This document shows positions 54,240 through 61,879 of a stretch of 64,000 nucleotides of DNA, one piece after another. The notes beneath the pieces were generated by a model, which saw only the letters and a program-made list of their open reading frames with translations, made no database searches and was not told the DNA's origin. Made by a program: the position numbers and the translations under genes. The DNA is from Actinomycetota bacterium (GTDB lineage Bacteria > Actinomycetota > Coriobacteriia > Anaerosomatales > Anaerosomataceae). The DNA is taken from contig WSXY01000002.1 in the NCBI GenBank assembly GCA_009773565.1, forward strand, positions 186,001 to 250,000. The letters are read 5' to 3'. The stretch's first letter is position 1. Every line of letters begins with the position of its first letter.

Positions 54240-54884
54240 ATGGAGCGCCTGACCCAGATTCCCCAGAGCACCATCCAGCGATTGCCAGTCTACCTACGCT
54301 GTCTTCTGCAGGTACAGGCAGTACGAATGCCGGTCATCAATTCGATTGGCATTGCGGAGATGTGTGGCACGAATGCTGCACAGGTCCGAAAGGATCTGTC
54401 GTGTCTCGGTGAACTCGGTATTCGCGGCACCGGCTATGATGTCGAAGCCCTTATCGGCCATATCTCACGGGTTCTCGGCATCACCGAGCGCCGCCGGGCG
54501 GCGATTGTCGGGTTTGGCAAGCTTGGCGGAGCGCTCCTCGGCTACAGCGGGTTCGGCGAGCGAGGCTTCGAGATCGTGGCGGTCTTTGACGTGGATCCTG
54601 CCAAGATCGGCACGGTCGCCGGCGACCTCATAGTGCGATCGTTCGACGACCTGGAGACCGTCTTAGCTGAAGAGGAAGTCGAGATAGTGATCATGGCGAC
54701 TCCACCTGCCACTGCTCAGGCCGTGGCATCGCGCGTGGTTGCCGCGGGAATCAGGGCCATTCTGAACCTGGCTCCGATCAACCTCGATGTGCCCGAGGGT
54801 GTTATCGTGCGACAGGTGTGCCTGTCGACCGACCTCCAGATACTGTCCTTCTATTTAGCGCAAGGTGGCTCAGACGAGAGATGA
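54240..54884 (+). CDS. rex: redox-sensing transcriptional repressor Rex
   Basis: Rex senses the NADH/NAD+ ratio and controls respiratory and fermentative genes. The 214-residue protein has the N-terminal winged helix (IPQSTIQRLPVYLRCL; AAQVRKDLSCLGELGIRGTG), the NADH loop GFGKLGGALLGY, the acidic VFDVDPAKIG and the domain-swapped C-terminal helix LSTDLQILSFYLAQ. ATG 54240 follows GGGGAG. The stop overlaps the next ATG, so it heads the cytochrome-linked operon. Confidence 0.95.
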   Translation: MERLTQIPQSTIQRLPVYLRCLLQVQAVRMPVINSIGIAEMCGTNAAQVRKDLSCLGELGIRGTGYDVEALIGHISRVLGITERRRAAIVGFGKLGGALLGYSGFGERGFEIVAVFDVDPAKIGTVAGDLIVRSFDDLETVLAEEEVEIVIMATPPATAQAVASRVVAAGIRAILNLAPINLDVPEGVIVRQVCLSTDLQILSFYLAQGGSDER

Positions 54885-55615
54885 CGAAGCGCAAAGATGA
54901 TGCTATGACAGACCGCGACCTCGATTCCCCCGAGGAGATAGCGCCTGTTGGGGATGACACAGAGGGCGCCGACTCCGGTGTCGTACGCGAAGAAGACCTG
55001 GTTCCGGGTTGGCTCGCGCTCCTGGTGCTCGTGCTACTGCTTGCTGTCGTGGGTCTCGGGGGTTTTGTCCTGCGCGGGGTCTTCACGCAAGACGAAGTCG
55101 CTTCACCGACGCGCTATGCGATCGCCGAGTGGCAGGCGAAGGTCGATCAGAACCCCGACGACGTTGAGAATCTTCTCGGCCTTGGCTACGCGTATCAGCA
55201 AAACGGCGAGTTCGACAAAGCTCTCAAGGAATATGACGCGGTCATCGAGCGCGACGCACAGAATATGGCAGCGATGTACAACAAAGGTGTTGTTCTCTTG
55301 CAGTTGGGCGAGACGAAACAGGCCGAGGACACCCTCTGGGCTGTGCTGAAGATCGCTCCGGATCACGCGCTCGCCGCCAAGGCGCTGGGACAACTCTACA
55401 TCGAGCAGAAGCACTATAAGTCAACGCTTGTCGCGGTCGATCCGGTCGTCAAGGCCCGTCCGGAGCTTGCCGACCTGCAGTTTCTGTCCGGGTACGCCAA
55501 CGAGCAACTGGACAACAAGGCGATCGCCATCGAGCGCTACAAGGCGGCTCTCAAGTACGCTCCGGATCTTATCGAAGCGCGAGACGGCCTAGCCCGTCTT
55601 GGTGGAGGGAAGTAG
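54881..55615 (+). CDS. membrane-anchored TPR protein
   Basis: The 244-residue protein has an acidic N-terminal tail, one helix at about residues 45-68 (LALLVLVLLLAVVGLGGFVL) and at least four TPR repeats outside the membrane (NLLGLGYAYQQNGEFDKALK and similar). It resembles the TPR part of CcmH/NrfG, which holds apocytochrome during heme attachment. Because it precedes large cytochromes, an assembly scaffold role is plausible. Its start overlaps the rex stop. Confidence 0.75.
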   Translation: MTKRKDDAMTDRDLDSPEEIAPVGDDTEGADSGVVREEDLVPGWLALLVLVLLLAVVGLGGFVLRGVFTQDEVASPTRYAIAEWQAKVDQNPDDVENLLGLGYAYQQNGEFDKALKEYDAVIERDAQNMAAMYNKGVVLLQLGETKQAEDTLWAVLKIAPDHALAAKALGQLYIEQKHYKSTLVAVDPVVKARPELADLQFLSGYANEQLDNKAIAIERYKAALKYAPDLIEARDGLARLGGGK

Positions 55616-55619
55616 CACC

Positions 55620-56702
55620 ATGGCAAACATATTCGCTCCGCTCAAGCGTGGAATCCGGCTTACCCCCCGGCAGTGGTTTGGCGTGTTGGCGGTCGTTCTG
55701 GGGATTTTGCTGGTCGGGCTGATCGTCTTCATGCTCTACTTCCTGGGTCGACCCGAATCGTTGACCGACAGACCCGCGAAGCAGGGCATTAAGCCTGTCT
55801 GGGCCGTGTACGGTCCCGGTCAGGGCGAGAAGCCGCTCTTTGAGCGCCCGATGGGCGTTGCGTCGGGAAGTCGCGGCCGGGTCTACGTGACCGACACTGG
55901 CAACAACCGTGTATGTGTCTTCGATTCTTCGGGTCGCTACCTCTTCGAGTTCGGTGGGTTCGGGGTTGCCAAGGCGCTCCCGGGTGGCAAGAACTCGTAC
56001 GTTGCCGGTCGGCTCAACTACCCCGTGGGAATCGACACGGACGAGGACGGCAACGTCTACGTTGCCAGCTTTCGGAATGACTCGGTTGAGGTCTTTGACG
56101 CCGCCGGCAAGCCGCTTCGACGGTTCCCGGATCCCACGAAGCCCGTTGGCAAGGGCTCGTCAGGGCAGGACGGCCTCGGTATCGCGGTGACCGACGTGGC
56201 GGTTCATGCGGGACTCGTCTATGCCCTGGACCAGTACCAGGTGTTCGTCTTCAAGACCGACGGGACGTTCGTCCGGCAGTTTGGCCGCCCGGGTGTCGAG
56301 GCCGGTGGTCTCGACCATCCCAACGGAATCGATATCGGGGACGATGGCACCATTTATGTTTCCGATTCCAACCATGCGCGCGTGAATGCGTACACGCCTG
56401 ACGGCAAGCCGAAATGGACCTTCGGAACACCGCCAAAAGGCATGGACGACAAGACTGCTCGCGATATCGAGTTGCCGCGTGGTATGACCGTCATGAGCGA
56501 TGGCTCACTTCTCGTGACCGATGCTTTCGGGTTCTCGCTTGTCCGGCTCTCGGCTGACGGGAAGCTCGTGGCCAAGTATGGCGAACGCGGCGTAGAGCCG
56601 GGACAGATCAATTTCCCGAATGATGTCGCTGCGCTTCGGGGATTCACGATCATTTGCGACAAGGAGAACAACAGAGTGCAACTGGTGCGGCTGGAGAACT
56701 GA
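55620..56702 (+). CDS. membrane-anchored NHL-repeat beta-propeller
   Basis: The 360-residue protein has one N-terminal helix (about 24-47) and a propeller of about six NHL blades (GVASGSRGRVYVTDTGNNRV; GIDIGDDGTIYVSDSNHARV). Such proteins have been noted beside extracellular multiheme cytochromes in metal-reducing bacteria. ATG 55620 is used because GGAGGG lies upstream. The molecular job is unknown. Confidence 0.8.
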   Translation: MANIFAPLKRGIRLTPRQWFGVLAVVLGILLVGLIVFMLYFLGRPESLTDRPAKQGIKPVWAVYGPGQGEKPLFERPMGVASGSRGRVYVTDTGNNRVCVFDSSGRYLFEFGGFGVAKALPGGKNSYVAGRLNYPVGIDTDEDGNVYVASFRNDSVEVFDAAGKPLRRFPDPTKPVGKGSSGQDGLGIAVTDVAVHAGLVYALDQYQVFVFKTDGTFVRQFGRPGVEAGGLDHPNGIDIGDDGTIYVSDSNHARVNAYTPDGKPKWTFGTPPKGMDDKTARDIELPRGMTVMSDGSLLVTDAFGFSLVRLSADGKLVAKYGERGVEPGQINFPNDVAALRGFTIICDKENNRVQLVRLEN

Positions 56703-56864: not shown

Positions 56865-58331
56865 TTGAGCGAGTCCGAGATGCTTGAGTCTCCGGTGACG
56901 GCGGCTGATGATGGTGGTGACATCGACGGTTCTTCGAATCGTCGCGGTCGCCTCGTTTTCGCCGCCATCTTGCTGTTGCTCTTGCTTCTCTGCACCATCA
57001 CGACGGTCGTGCAGACGCTGGTGAGCCGTACTCCCGACCAGATCCGGAGCATCACCCGGAACATCGAGTGTCTGCAGTGCCATACCGAGATGATTCCCGC
57101 GATGTCGAAGGCGTCGGTACATAACCCCTTCTTGCTCAAGAGTTGCACTGCGTGCCATACACCGCACGGCAAGATAGTCGAGAAGTCAGTGGTGACCGGC
57201 GCAACTCGTACATGGGAGCGCACAAAGACGCTTGTTGAGTGGATTCCACTCAAGCTTGTGCTCGATGTCTTCTACTCGGATGAGACCACTGGGACCGAGA
57301 CCGTCGGTGGAGGCGTGAAGTCGGTCACCGAAGAGCGCGCGAAGGGCGAGAAGTCCAGTCTCGTGCTCCCTGGCAACGAACTCTGCTGGATGTGCCACGG
57401 CAATCTCGGCCCGAGTCTCGGAATGGCGTACCCGCACGAACCCTTCAAGGACGGCTATTGCACGAACTGCCACAACCCGCATGCTTCTGACTTCCGAGTC
57501 TTACTTACTCAAGACGAGCGCGACCTGTGCGTCACATGTCACCCGATCGGGCCGGAGCTCGCTCGCAAGCAGGTACACCCGCCGGTTGAAGGTCGGTTCT
57601 GCCTCAACTGCCACAATCCGCACGCGTCTGAGTACAAGGGTATCCTGGTGACGAATCAGCGAGACCTCTGCTTCACATGCCATCCGAGTGTCGCACCGCT
57701 CAGCCTTAAGCCTGTGCAGCACAACCCGTTCCTCTACGATAACTGCACGGGATGCCACGAGCCGCATGGCTCGGATTACCTCCCGTTGCTCATCAGCGAA
57801 CAGCCCCGAGTGTGCTACACCTGTCACCCGGACATCAGCAAGGACTTCCTCAAGCCGAGCCACCACCCTGTTGGCACGGTCCAACTCAACTGCGGCGATT
57901 GTCACAATCCGCACGCTGCCGATTATCCGGGTCTCATCTCCGCCGAGGACAACGCGATGTGCTACCAGTGTCATCGCGTGAAGATCGCCACATCCTATGA
58001 GAAGTCCGCGCACAAGGGTACCCTCTGCATCCGGTGTCACACCCCCCACGGTTCCAACTACACTCCGCTGCTGATCGACAGCAATCCCGACGTGTGTCTC
58101 AAGTGCCACAACCCCAAGTCCTACGACGCCGAGCAGGGCAACAACCACCCTGTGCGTCCGTATGATTTCGACGTTGCAGCTCAGGAGCCGCTGACGTGCA
58201 CATCCACATGCCATAACCCACACGGTACGGACCTCAACTTCATGTTGATGAACTTCCCGTCGCCGCTCGATGGCCAGTGTCTGCAATGCCACGGGAAGGT
58301 CGGTTATCCGCGTGTCGGTATCGATTACTAG
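56865..58331 (+). CDS. membrane-anchored multiheme cytochrome c, 15 heme sites
   Basis: The 488-residue protein has an N-terminal anchor helix (about 28-50) and, beyond it, 14 CXXCH motifs plus one CX3CH (CTSTCH, near residue 445). Six motifs fall in the repeated form CHNPHA, CHTPHG or CHEPHG, giving a doublecytochrome-like tandem arrangement with regular distal histidines. It should be exported, with heme attached by the Ccm system. TTG 56865 is four bases from AAGGAGG. No catalytic CX2CK or similar site is seen, so electron conduction or storage is likely. Confidence 0.9.
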   Translation: MSESEMLESPVTAADDGGDIDGSSNRRGRLVFAAILLLLLLLCTITTVVQTLVSRTPDQIRSITRNIECLQCHTEMIPAMSKASVHNPFLLKSCTACHTPHGKIVEKSVVTGATRTWERTKTLVEWIPLKLVLDVFYSDETTGTETVGGGVKSVTEERAKGEKSSLVLPGNELCWMCHGNLGPSLGMAYPHEPFKDGYCTNCHNPHASDFRVLLTQDERDLCVTCHPIGPELARKQVHPPVEGRFCLNCHNPHASEYKGILVTNQRDLCFTCHPSVAPLSLKPVQHNPFLYDNCTGCHEPHGSDYLPLLISEQPRVCYTCHPDISKDFLKPSHHPVGTVQLNCGDCHNPHAADYPGLISAEDNAMCYQCHRVKIATSYEKSAHKGTLCIRCHTPHGSNYTPLLIDSNPDVCLKCHNPKSYDAEQGNNHPVRPYDFDVAAQEPLTCTSTCHNPHGTDLNFMLMNFPSPLDGQCLQCHGKVGYPRVGIDY

Positions 58332-58376: not shown

Positions 58377-59591
58377 ATGGCCAAGATATCCCTATCCGGG
58401 TTCAAAGATCCGGTTCGTCGCCCGAGGTATATCATCTGGACGGGTGTCGTCGTTCTCGTGCTGGCGGTCTTCGTCTTCGTGGCGTTCAGCGCTACCTCAA
58501 CGTATTGGTTCTGCGCCGAGGTCTGTCACAAGGTGCAGGATGACTCGATCGACGCCTACAACCGCTCCGCACATAACATGGTCTCGTGCATGTCATGTCA
58601 CGAGCCGGTGAATGCGGATCCGATCACGCTCACGCTTAAGAAGGCAAAAGCGCTCGGTGAGCTTGTGTTGACCGTCACCGGCAACTACGAGCTGCCACTT
58701 AATGCTGAGAGCCACCTGGCGATGAATGCCGAAGAGATGGGCTCCGGACAGTGCACGCAGTGCCATACGAGCAACCGCGTGATCACCCCTGGCGCGGGAA
58801 TCATCATCGACCACGCCGTGCACGAGGAGAACGAGGTCAGCTGTACCGTCTGCCATAACCGGGCCGGTCATAACGAGAGTGGCGATTGGAATCCCAAGCT
58901 GTCCAACCCCAACGGCGGCGAGAAGAGCGTAAAGCACGCAAACTTCATGTCGATGACGGCGTGTTTTCGTTGCCACACACTCACCAACAAGGCGCCCAAG
59001 GGCGGCATTAAGGCGCCCGGTACCTGCTCGGCGTGTCACCCCGCTAACTTCAAGCTCAAGCCTGCTAATCACGAGGCCAAGGATTTCTACCCCAAAGGGC
59101 ATGCCAGGCTCGCCGCGGCCAAGGTTGATCGCGCCACGGGAAAGCCGGTGCAGACAACGGATGCTGCTTCCGAGGCAACGGGCGCGGCTGAAGGTGCCGC
59201 TGAGGGTACCGCCACCGAGACTGCCGTCGAGGGTGAGGGCCTGAACCTCCTCGCCGTGTCGGCTATCGACTACTGCAGCACCTGCCATGTGGTCGATACG
59301 TTCTGTTCGGGGTGCCACGGGCTTGAGATGCCGCACCCTGCGTCATTCGCGAAGAACCATGGCGCCGACGGCAAGGCCAAGCCAAAGGTGTGTGCGAACT
59401 GTCACGCAAAGAGCAAAGGCAGCACGGGGACTGAATTCTGCAATGCATGCCATCACAAGCAGGGCGACCCGAACAAGCCGTGGATCCCGCAGCACTTTGT
59501 CGCGGTGCGTGAGACAGGGGCTCAGGCGTGCTTCGAGTGTCACGCTCCGACGTCGTGCGCGAAGTGCCACGTTCGCGCCGCGCTTCCTTAA
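58377..59591 (+). CDS. NapC/NirT-like multiheme cytochrome c, 12 heme sites
   Basis: The 404-residue protein starts with a single anchor helix (about 20-42) and a NapC-like first pair, CAEVCH (a CX3CH form) then CMSCH, the usual menaquinol-side layout. In all there are 11 CXXCH and one CX3CH. A low-complexity Ala/Glu/Thr linker at about residues 262-290 separates two heme-bearing parts. It probably takes electrons from menaquinol and passes them to the 15-heme partner or outward. Confidence 0.88.
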   Translation: MAKISLSGFKDPVRRPRYIIWTGVVVLVLAVFVFVAFSATSTYWFCAEVCHKVQDDSIDAYNRSAHNMVSCMSCHEPVNADPITLTLKKAKALGELVLTVTGNYELPLNAESHLAMNAEEMGSGQCTQCHTSNRVITPGAGIIIDHAVHEENEVSCTVCHNRAGHNESGDWNPKLSNPNGGEKSVKHANFMSMTACFRCHTLTNKAPKGGIKAPGTCSACHPANFKLKPANHEAKDFYPKGHARLAAAKVDRATGKPVQTTDAASEATGAAEGAAEGTATETAVEGEGLNLLAVSAIDYCSTCHVVDTFCSGCHGLEMPHPASFAKNHGADGKAKPKVCANCHAKSKGSTGTEFCNACHHKQGDPNKPWIPQHFVAVRETGAQACFECHAPTSCAKCHVRAALP

Positions 59592-59612: not shown

Positions 59613-60194
59613 ATGACGCATAGTGTGGACGCGGGCCAGTACCGGATGACGGTCGTCGGTTGGAGTGCAAAGTTGAAGCTGAGAATCAATGTCGCTGCCA
59701 TCGCTGTGTGCTGTATGGCGGTACTCGCTGTTGGCGGATGCAAACCAGCGGAGAATGCTGTGACTGCAACATCGGCTCGGCCTGCAGTCAGGCCGGCTGC
59801 ACCGTCGCTCAAGACACCGACGTCGGCAGTTGAGTCCTATCTCGATTGGATCTCGTTCTCGTATCGCCAGATGGATTCGGATCTCGCTTCAGCGACTATG
59901 ACACCGGATGAGCTCGTTCATGTGGACGCCTATGTGCAGTTCAATCTTCAGAAGGAGCGCGGAATCGAGCAGGAGCTCCTGAACCTGAAGGTTCGCTCGG
60001 TATCCGAGGAGTCGACCCGCGCCATCGTCGCTGCGTCCGAGGAGTGGCGGTACCGGTATTTCGCTCGGACCACACTGCTCTACGACGGCCCGGAGCGACT
60101 CGTCAGTTATGAGACCACGTACACGCTTGTTCGCTCGGACGGCGCGTGGCTTGTCGATGCGGTGGAGGCGACGGCGGCCGGCGAAGTGCCGTGA
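59613..60194 (+). CDS. small predicted lipoprotein, NTF2-like body
   Basis: The protein has up to 193 residues. A hydrophobic segment ends in the lipobox LAVGGC, and the mature part ends with strands like YTLVRSDGAWLVDAVEA, suggesting an NTF2-like fold. The start is unsure: ATG 59646 would give a more usual signal length. No ribosome site is clear for either. It lies between a cytochrome and the second NHL gene and may be a surface partner. Confidence 0.6.
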   Translation: MTHSVDAGQYRMTVVGWSAKLKLRINVAAIAVCCMAVLAVGGCKPAENAVTATSARPAVRPAAPSLKTPTSAVESYLDWISFSYRQMDSDLASATMTPDELVHVDAYVQFNLQKERGIEQELLNLKVRSVSEESTRAIVAASEEWRYRYFARTTLLYDGPERLVSYETTYTLVRSDGAWLVDAVEATAAGEVP

Positions 60195-61168
60195 TCCGCG
60201 GCGTACGTCCCCGGCGACTGGCTGCCGTTCTCGGGCTGATTGTAGTGCTCGCGGTGGTTGCGGGCATCGTCTTACTGCTTAGCCCCTCCGGTGGACCTGT
60301 CGCGGATCGCTCATTCCAGCGAGAATCGACGGCAACCGTTCTGTACGTCGGCCAGTTTCCCGCCGAAGGTGAGTCGGCGCTACTTGGACCAATCGGGATC
60401 GGAATTGGCGACGACATGCTCTATGTCGCAGAATCCGACGCGGGGAGGGTTTCGCTCTTTGCCCTTGATGGCTCAGCTCGCGGCGCGATAGTTCTCCCGG
60501 TGGCTTCTGGCGCTCCTTCGGCGTATCCCTCCGACCTGGCTGTGCTTGATGAGAATCGCCTGGTTGTCGTGGACAATGCTGGCATGAGGGTACTCATCGT
60601 GGCCTCGGGCCCGAACGCTGAGGGTCCTCTCTTGGGAGTTGTTGGCGAGCGAAGCGCCGCTTCGCGACCGCTGCAGCCGACAGCCGTGGCCGTTGGCGCC
60701 AACGAGATCTACGTCGCGGATGCGGGTGACCGGACGATCAAGGTCTACGCACAGGACGGCAGATTTGAGCGAGTCATTGCGAAAGACCTTAACCAGGCGC
60801 TTACCTTTGTGGGCGGCATGGTCGTTCTCGGAAATGAGTTGTTCGTGACGGACTCAAACGCCGGCCGCGTACTCGTTCTTGATGTTCGCGCCGGCACATT
60901 GAAGCGAACATTTCCGGACACCCGTGTTCTTCCCCGTGGTATATGCGCGGGTAGGGACAATGGTGTGTTGGTCGCCGATACATTTGAAAGATCGGTGCTT
61001 CTACTCTCGGCTAAGGGGGCCGCTCTCGATGAGATTACGGCTGCCTCTGGAGGCTCACTCGGGAGTCCACGGGATGTCGCATGGAGCGAGGCAAGGGCGC
61101 AGGCATACGTGACGGATGCCGGCGCAGGACGGGTTATGGTCTACAGAATGCGACCTTCACCCGAGTGA
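60191..61168 (+). CDS. membrane-anchored NHL/beta-propeller protein
   Basis: The 325-residue protein has an N-terminal helix (about 8-30) and propeller blades such as GIGIGDDMLYVAESDAGRV and VAVGANEIYVADAGDRTI. It is a distant relative of the NHL protein upstream of the cytochromes, so the locus is bracketed by two. GTG 60191 overlaps the lipoprotein stop. Confidence 0.75.
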   Translation: MIRGVRPRRLAAVLGLIVVLAVVAGIVLLLSPSGGPVADRSFQRESTATVLYVGQFPAEGESALLGPIGIGIGDDMLYVAESDAGRVSLFALDGSARGAIVLPVASGAPSAYPSDLAVLDENRLVVVDNAGMRVLIVASGPNAEGPLLGVVGERSAASRPLQPTAVAVGANEIYVADAGDRTIKVYAQDGRFERVIAKDLNQALTFVGGMVVLGNELFVTDSNAGRVLVLDVRAGTLKRTFPDTRVLPRGICAGRDNGVLVADTFERSVLLLSAKGAALDEITAASGGSLGSPRDVAWSEARAQAYVTDAGAGRVMVYRMRPSPE

Positions 61169-61222: not shown

Positions 61223-61879
61223 ATGTCTGATGGCCGGAGCGCTCCCGATGCCACGCTGTATCGTCTTTCGCTCTACCACTGCTATCTCGGGGAACTCCTG
61301 CGCGTGGGTGCTCCGGGGCGCATCACGTCTCGTCAGTTGGCCGACGAGTTAGGCGCCAAGGAAGAGACGGTGCGTCGCGACATTTCGTTCGTTGGTGATA
61401 TCGGTCGTCCGGGCGCCGGTTATGAACCTGAGGTACTCTTCGGGGCCGTCACAGAGTTCCTTGGCCTGAGCGATGAGTACCCGATTGCCATGATCGGTAC
61501 GGCTCGCATGCTTGAAGCCCTCCAGGTTGTCTTCCCGTGTGAGCGCTATGGCATGAAGCCAACGCGTCTCTTCTCCGAGCTTCCCGAGGATGCCGGACAG
61601 GTCATCGGTGGGCTTGCAGTCCAGAACCTCCCCGACATCGCTCAGATCGACCCCGGGGCCGGCATCAGCGTGGCGCTTGTAGCCTGCTCGCCGGGATGGG
61701 TTCAGGTATCACTCGACCTTCTTGCCGCTGCTGGTGTCGCAGGTGCATTGCTGCTGACGCCCATTATTCGTGTGCGGAAGCCTGCGGGGATGGAGATCAC
61801 GCAGCTCCGAATGCCGTGCGATCTGAAGTCGCTCGCCTGCAAGTGCCGGGCCCCGATTGGTGCTGTCGGATCGAGGTAG
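61223..61879 (+). CDS. divergent Rex-family regulator lacking the NADH motif
   Basis: The 218-residue protein keeps the Rex DNA-binding half: RRDISFVGDIGRPGAGYEPE aligns with RKDLSCLGELGIRGTGYDVE of the neighbouring Rex. The Rossmann glycines GFGKLG are replaced by GTARML, so NADH binding is doubtful. The C-terminal helix reads MPCDLKSLACKC, three cysteines (CX6CXC) where Rex has STDLQILSFYL. Further cysteines are in LYHCYL, FPCERY and VACSPG. ATG 61223 follows TGGAGG. It may sense thiols, an iron-sulfur cluster or heme. Confidence 0.8.
   Translation: MSDGRSAPDATLYRLSLYHCYLGELLRVGAPGRITSRQLADELGAKEETVRRDISFVGDIGRPGAGYEPEVLFGAVTEFLGLSDEYPIAMIGTARMLEALQVVFPCERYGMKPTRLFSELPEDAGQVIGGLAVQNLPDIAQIDPGAGISVALVACSPGWVQVSLDLLAAAGVAGALLLTPIIRVRKPAGMEITQLRMPCDLKSLACKCRAPIGAVGSR

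Follow-up and report, generated by a model that had tools for sequence, protein, structure and literature searches.

The analysed window is a stretch of 64,000 nucleotides, and all of its genes described here lie on the forward strand. A canonical Rex gene of the NAD type (54240–54884), in which Cys194 occupies the position of Asp188, stands at the head of a cytochrome cluster. It is followed by genes for a TPR protein (54818–55615), an NHL-repeat protein (55599–56702), c-type cytochromes with 14 hemes (56865–58331) and 11 hemes (58377–59591), a small protein with an NTF2-like domain just under the Pfam cut-off (59613–60194) and another NHL-repeat protein (60146–61168). The next gene (61223–61879) encodes the regulator studied here, a Rex-fold protein of 218 amino acids without the NADH site, which was assigned by Pfam, an AlphaFold2 model, a structure match and 43 orthologues. 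Its usual next gene codes for a B12-binding radical SAM protein of TIGR04190 (61857–63767), the true start of which is probably further in. The first-pass annotation had placed the canonical Rex 6.3 kb upstream, and the distance from its end to the regulator start was 6339 bases.

The regulator gene starts with an ATG after GGAGG. A longer frame of 235 residues from 61172 also exists; the orthologue alignments begin at the 61223 start. Pfam recognised Put_DNA-bind_N at residues 8–55 (4.3e-10). The AlphaFold2 model, built for the monomer, had a mean pLDDT of 87.9, and its C-terminal helix spans residues 197–209. The top structural match was Thermus aquaticus Rex with DNA and NAD+ (3ikt_B; Z 20.1, 2.7 Å, 206 residues aligned with the last helix included), so that the proposed retention of the Rex fold, with winged helix, Rossmann fold and C-terminal helix, was borne out. 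Rex accounted for 39 of the 40 chains with E < 0.001, but such listings are nearly all Rex, and nothing follows from the lack of other folds among them. The nearest structures after Rex were succinyl-CoA synthetase domains, as expected for any Rex. The regulator missed all curated NCBIfam Rex cut-offs (its top score of 100.6 bits fell short of the 126 required by the nearest model), whereas the canonical upstream Rex, taken as a control, passed its model with 257.7 bits against 226. Annotation pipelines may nevertheless label members of the family as Rex, so NADH regulation of their neighbours may be wrongly assumed. The observation of a Rex-like protein with an altered NADH site and cysteines at 61223–61879 is confirmed.

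The NAD site and the cysteines

The dinucleotide loop GxGxLG is replaced by GTARML at residues 92–97 (61496–61513), as had been read from the sequence. The second and third glycines are missing in all 43 orthologues, and the first, G92, is invariant. At the ribose site Asp115 has become Ser118 in 43 of 43. Further NAD contacts are altered, with Asp or Glu for Lys120 and Phe for Tyr98/100. Arg16', Tyr98' and Asp188 form the open/closed switch of Rex, and T. maritima has Met in place of Arg16 (PMC6125430). In the regulator these three positions are Cys20, Phe104 (Val103 in an ungapped alignment) and Arg196. The most likely explanation includes that the protein would no longer read NADH.

Cysteines were found at several of the positions concerned. 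The codon of Cys20 (61280–61282) aligns with Arg16 of T. aquaticus Rex, and that of Cys155 (61685–61687) with Val153 of T. maritima Rex. The C-terminal helix, which is domain-swapped in Rex, contains MPCDLKSLACKC at residues 197–208 (61811–61846) with C199, C206 and C208; the predicted gain of cysteines in this helix was thus correct. The C-terminal positions were mapped via the canonical upstream Rex, which has no gaps against the regulator at the C-terminus. Asp188 (Asp191 in T. maritima) aligns with Arg196, and Ala194 and Phe201 of T. maritima align with Cys199 and Cys206.

Among the 43 non-redundant orthologues, termed group I, C20 is conserved in 42 of 42, C155 in 40 of 43 and C199 in 43 of 43. 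Position 206 is Cys in 40 of 43 and His in two (38 Cys without the alignment insertion), and position 208 is Cys in 39 of 43 (38 without it), where two of the C206 counts and one C208 count depend on alignments that hold the insertion. The full contiguous CX6CXC occurs in 36 of 43. The sixth cysteine, C106, was rejected as a cluster member, as it is not conserved among the orthologues. Five of six random positions would be conserved to at least 90% with P ~ 0.02, and by itself the cysteine conservation is only suggestive. A stronger point is the specificity of the motif. When 61 genomes were scanned at the DNA level for P-C-[DE]-x-K-x-L-A-C-x-C, each of the 36 matches fell on a regulator gene, and the reversed pattern gave none in the same genomes. 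Outside the DNA-contact set, C20, S118, R196, C199 and K202 are invariant across the 43 orthologues, and the pair His19-Cys20 is nearly so.

In T. maritima Rex, Phe201 clusters with helix 1 and Val153 lies at the N-ribose of NAD (PMC8836258). From these homologous positions, Cys20' of one subunit should face Cys199 and Cys206 of the other, near Cys155.

In the canonical upstream Rex of the window and its counterparts (L136–L149), Arg16, the glycine loop and Tyr98 are kept and the Asp188 position is Cys, with one Ser. These residues at Asp188 occur in the window's own family; the canonical Rex of other families of the order has Asp. A third Rex (L002/L068, on contig C13 of G000) has an intact NAD loop and Gly at the Arg16 position; a further multiheme cytochrome gene (a 733-residue frame) is found some 6 kb away from it.

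Relatives, DNA contacts and gene neighbours

The group I orthologues share about 45–80% identity and are spread across the order OPB41/Anaerosomatales of the Coriobacteriia, which was placed by named loci and PMC9686372. Among the 398 genomes searched in this class, no order but this one contained the family; two class-search matches at E < 1e-30 (G130 with 110 bits and a second one in G002 with 109 bits) were at the level of ordinary Rex. The sensitive taxonomic search covered the phylum Actinomycetota, and beyond it a contig scan reached close relatives only. In the phylum, relatives with 171–212 bits were found in two other families, against 127 or less for ordinary Rex. These more distant relatives, group II, belong to another class of Actinomycetota, and a search of 36 genomes of that class gave members in one family and a single member in another.

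Group II is also without the NAD loop and under the NCBIfam Rex cut-offs. Its model folds as Rex, and many structure rows had a high rmsd, which we read as a domain shift. C20 and C199 are invariant there too; most members have Thr in place of C155, with His156 frequently next to it, and His is common at position 206. A tree of 63 sequences showed a branch of length 2.3 with an SH-aLRT of 100 between NAD-type Rex and the two groups I and II, the placement of two long-branched group II rows being unsure. By this tree, groups I and II are one clade, an old family separate from NAD-type Rex. A recent duplication of the upstream Rex was rejected, since the regulator falls in the separate clade; the term Rex paralogue used before does not hold in the sense of a recent copy of its neighbour. 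The emphasis on CX6CXC as the key cluster is to be refined. The motif is largely kept in group I, but the deepest signal is the invariant pair, and judged by conservation across both groups CX6CXC is an elaboration of group I on the pair C20 and C199.

The DNA contacts of T. maritima Rex are kept in 8 of 12 cases (R14, S36, K46, R51, S55, G61, G64 and Y67) and changed in four (Glu34 to Arg37, Gln46 to Thr49, Lys49 to Arg52 and Arg60 to Pro63). From this comparison the regulator is expected to remain a DNA-binding protein, and its target site has probably changed. GYEPE, earlier called the recognition stretch, is kept at residues 66–70, but GYE closes the wing and is not the recognition helix. 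The Rex operators TTGTGAA-N4-TTCACAA and TTGTTAA-N4-TTAACAA had no match in the 64-kb window with up to 3 mismatches. The suggestion that both Rex-type switches share or contest operators was not upheld, as the window scan was without Rex sites and the DNA-contact residues differ. An intergenic scan for shared palindromes gave nothing general, and the Streptomyces-like AGTGAACGCGTTCACT was matched exactly in one genome only (L043/L075).

The palindrome ATCGAAC-N4-GTTCGAT, the single one to recur in group II, occurs in perfect form at L122 (8775), L123 (11315) and L128 (9071). It was rejected as an operator of the regulator because it stands before a DNA polymerase IV gene and resembles a LexA box.

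The common gene layout begins with a Wzy-like gene, Rex, TPR, NHL, a 7-heme cytochrome and genes of about 285–350 and 430–500 residues. The 14-heme and 11-heme cytochromes, NHL, in many genomes a 17–33-heme protein, and the regulator follow. In several genomes the regulator stands directly after the cytochromes, with the 11-heme gene immediately before it. Behind it come the radical SAM gene TIGR04190, a MenG-like methyltransferase and an amidohydrolase, which follow in most genomes and are possibly a quinone-modifying set, and then RseC-like, STAS and TatA/C genes. Some of the names given here come from our own reading of the sequences. Where Rex and the regulator were on one contig (19 genomes), they were 4.6–19 kb apart. 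In L061 (8489–10649) the regulator is present in three tandem copies, flanked by the 11-heme cytochrome gene and the radical SAM gene.

A check proposed earlier was whether homologues lacking GxGxLG and holding CX6CXC cluster beside multiheme cytochromes. A multiheme gene was found within 4 kb of 28 of the 34 group I genes and of 8 of the 14 group II genes, against a rough baseline of about 17% of window positions in a window that itself contains the cytochrome cluster; these counts support an association with multiheme cytochromes. In several genomes (L077, L078) the cytochrome cluster is present without the regulator gene, which counts against the switch proposed below. The obligate Fe(III) reducer Parvivirga has a cluster with MtrA/OmcH homologues, cytochrome c biogenesis genes and a Rex-type gene, for which the paper names no specific Rex type, and this cluster is missing from the non-reducing M08DHB (PMC9686372).

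Outlying members of the family were found beside other genes. L066 and L064 adjoin a DsbD_2-cupredoxin gene, which L066 overlaps, L065 adjoins a P-type ATPase of the copper type with three HMA domains, and L172, with the C-terminal SCCGGGHC, adjoins both kinds. L062, in which C206 is His, precedes TupA/TupB-like tungstate transport genes (matches under the equivalog cut-offs) and MobA/FdhD genes, and the arrangement at L173 is similar. In two genera of group II, L127 (8372–10915) and L129 (1731–3623) are divergent from LarB/LarE genes for the nickel-pincer cofactor, the identity being confirmed by model for L127. The outlying cases are few and some lie at contig ends; they share a metal or cofactor theme.

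Proposed switch and its alternatives

The lost NADH site and the gained conserved cysteines agree with the earlier idea of a rewired sensor on the Rex scaffold, and the family probably senses a metal, an Fe-S cluster or the thiol redox state in place of NADH. Our leading explanation, which seems to us about an even bet, is that the protein regulates multiheme cytochrome genes by means of a switch built on cysteines and probably linked to a metal or cluster. The copper, tungstate-uptake and nickel-pincer neighbours of the outlying members favour a metal or metal-thiolate signal, and together with the Cys to His exchanges they favour a metal or Fe-S cluster over heme.

We propose a dimeric regulator in which the swapped C-terminal helix would still carry the signal from the sensor cleft on to the winged helix. 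The Arg16/Tyr98/Asp188 switch would be replaced by Cys20' in helix 1 facing Cys199 of the other subunit, with Cys206 and Cys208 in group I, and Cys155 would lie where Rex accommodates the nicotinamide ribose. A metal or Fe-S cluster with thiolate ligands, bound or lost at this seam between the subunits, may tilt the helix and alter DNA binding. The output would be control of extracellular electron transfer through the adjoining multiheme cytochrome genes. The dimer, the cysteine proximity, the ligand, the direction of regulation and the regulon are what we infer here. In group II C20 and C199 alone are constant, which makes too few cysteines for a four-Cys cluster by themselves. In one regular helix CX6CXC cannot form a single cluster unless the helix end unwinds or other residues join. 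The full proposal is tentative and falls somewhat short of an even chance. It sees a separate Rex-fold family in Actinomycetota that has given up the NADH site and would bind a metal or Fe-S cluster through Cys(/His) residues at the Arg16-Asp188' seam, by which metal or redox cofactor status would be tied to multiheme cytochrome expression.

The main rival, and our second choice for the seam, is dithiol-disulfide exchange. A reversible disulfide or persulfide between Cys20' and Cys199 would lock the winged helices without a metal, and the other Cys and His residues would be secondary. C20 and C199 are the sole cysteines invariant in both groups and they lie at the Rex Arg16-Asp188' seam, which speaks for this explanation. 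We nevertheless consider it less likely, because the exchange of Cys for His at 206, seen twice in group I, and the His residues at 156 and 206 in group II resemble metal ligation, and the outlying members adjoin metal-handling genes. In addition, those members of the order that are in culture are anaerobes, for which sensing by disulfides would be less expected.

Less probable still is that the Rossmann cleft binds another nucleotide, a CoA derivative or a metabolite and that the cysteines are structural. The conserved fold with the invariant G92, the invariant S118 where NAD binders have Asp, a weak sub-threshold match to CoA_binding and the succinyl-CoA synthetase neighbours in the structure search point in this direction, but these neighbours come up with any Rex, the glycine-rich loop is gone and the invariant C20, at the switch position outside the cleft, would be unexplained. 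A heme sensor that links cytochrome expression to heme supply would suit the cytochrome neighbourhood and the His19-Cys20 pair; it is improbable, as the CP heme-regulatory motif is absent and the outlying members have genes for Cu, W and Ni rather than for heme as neighbours. Most improbable is a signal-free, constitutively DNA-binding Rex derivative or a decaying gene, which the lost ligand site and the missing of the gene in several relatives would fit, since five residues outside the DNA-contact set are invariant and every copy found is free of internal stop codons.

A Rex-fold family whose switch residues turned into cysteines would illustrate how a dinucleotide sensor can change into one for thiols or metals with its mechanical coupling unchanged. 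For the subsurface order Anaerosomatales (OPB41), it would also offer a way into the regulation of the genes for extracellular electron transfer.

Comparison with known regulators

In the literature compared, every characterised Rex is an NAD(H) sensor. A Rex-fold sensor with a cysteine switch was not found in the open literature, which is not proof of absence, and the family is apparently undescribed. The Fe-S and metal-thiolate regulators IscR/NsrR, FNR, SoxR and CsoR are DNA-binding dimers with clustered conserved cysteines and an occasional His. With five conserved cysteines in group I, one of them twice replaced by His, and two constant ones in group II, the regulator may resemble them, and its genes likewise stand close to those for metal-dependent respiration or the handling of metals. 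Their folds are unrelated, its spacing of CX6CXC plus distant cysteines differs from theirs, and its metal or cluster is a proposed one. RexT of Nostoc is also a redox-responsive bacterial transcription regulator; it belongs to the ArsR-SmtB family, is unrelated to Rex and is similar in name alone (PMC8960804). The closest system is Rex itself (T. aquaticus 1XCB/3IKT, T. maritima 5ZZ5/7WB3), with which the regulator shares the winged helix, the Rossmann fold and the C-terminal helix at about 27% identity over 206 residues, most of the DNA contacts and respiratory genes nearby. It differs from Rex in that the NAD loop, the ribose-site Asp and Lys, Arg16, Tyr98 and Asp188 are all replaced and that C20, C155, C199, C206 and C208 are gained.
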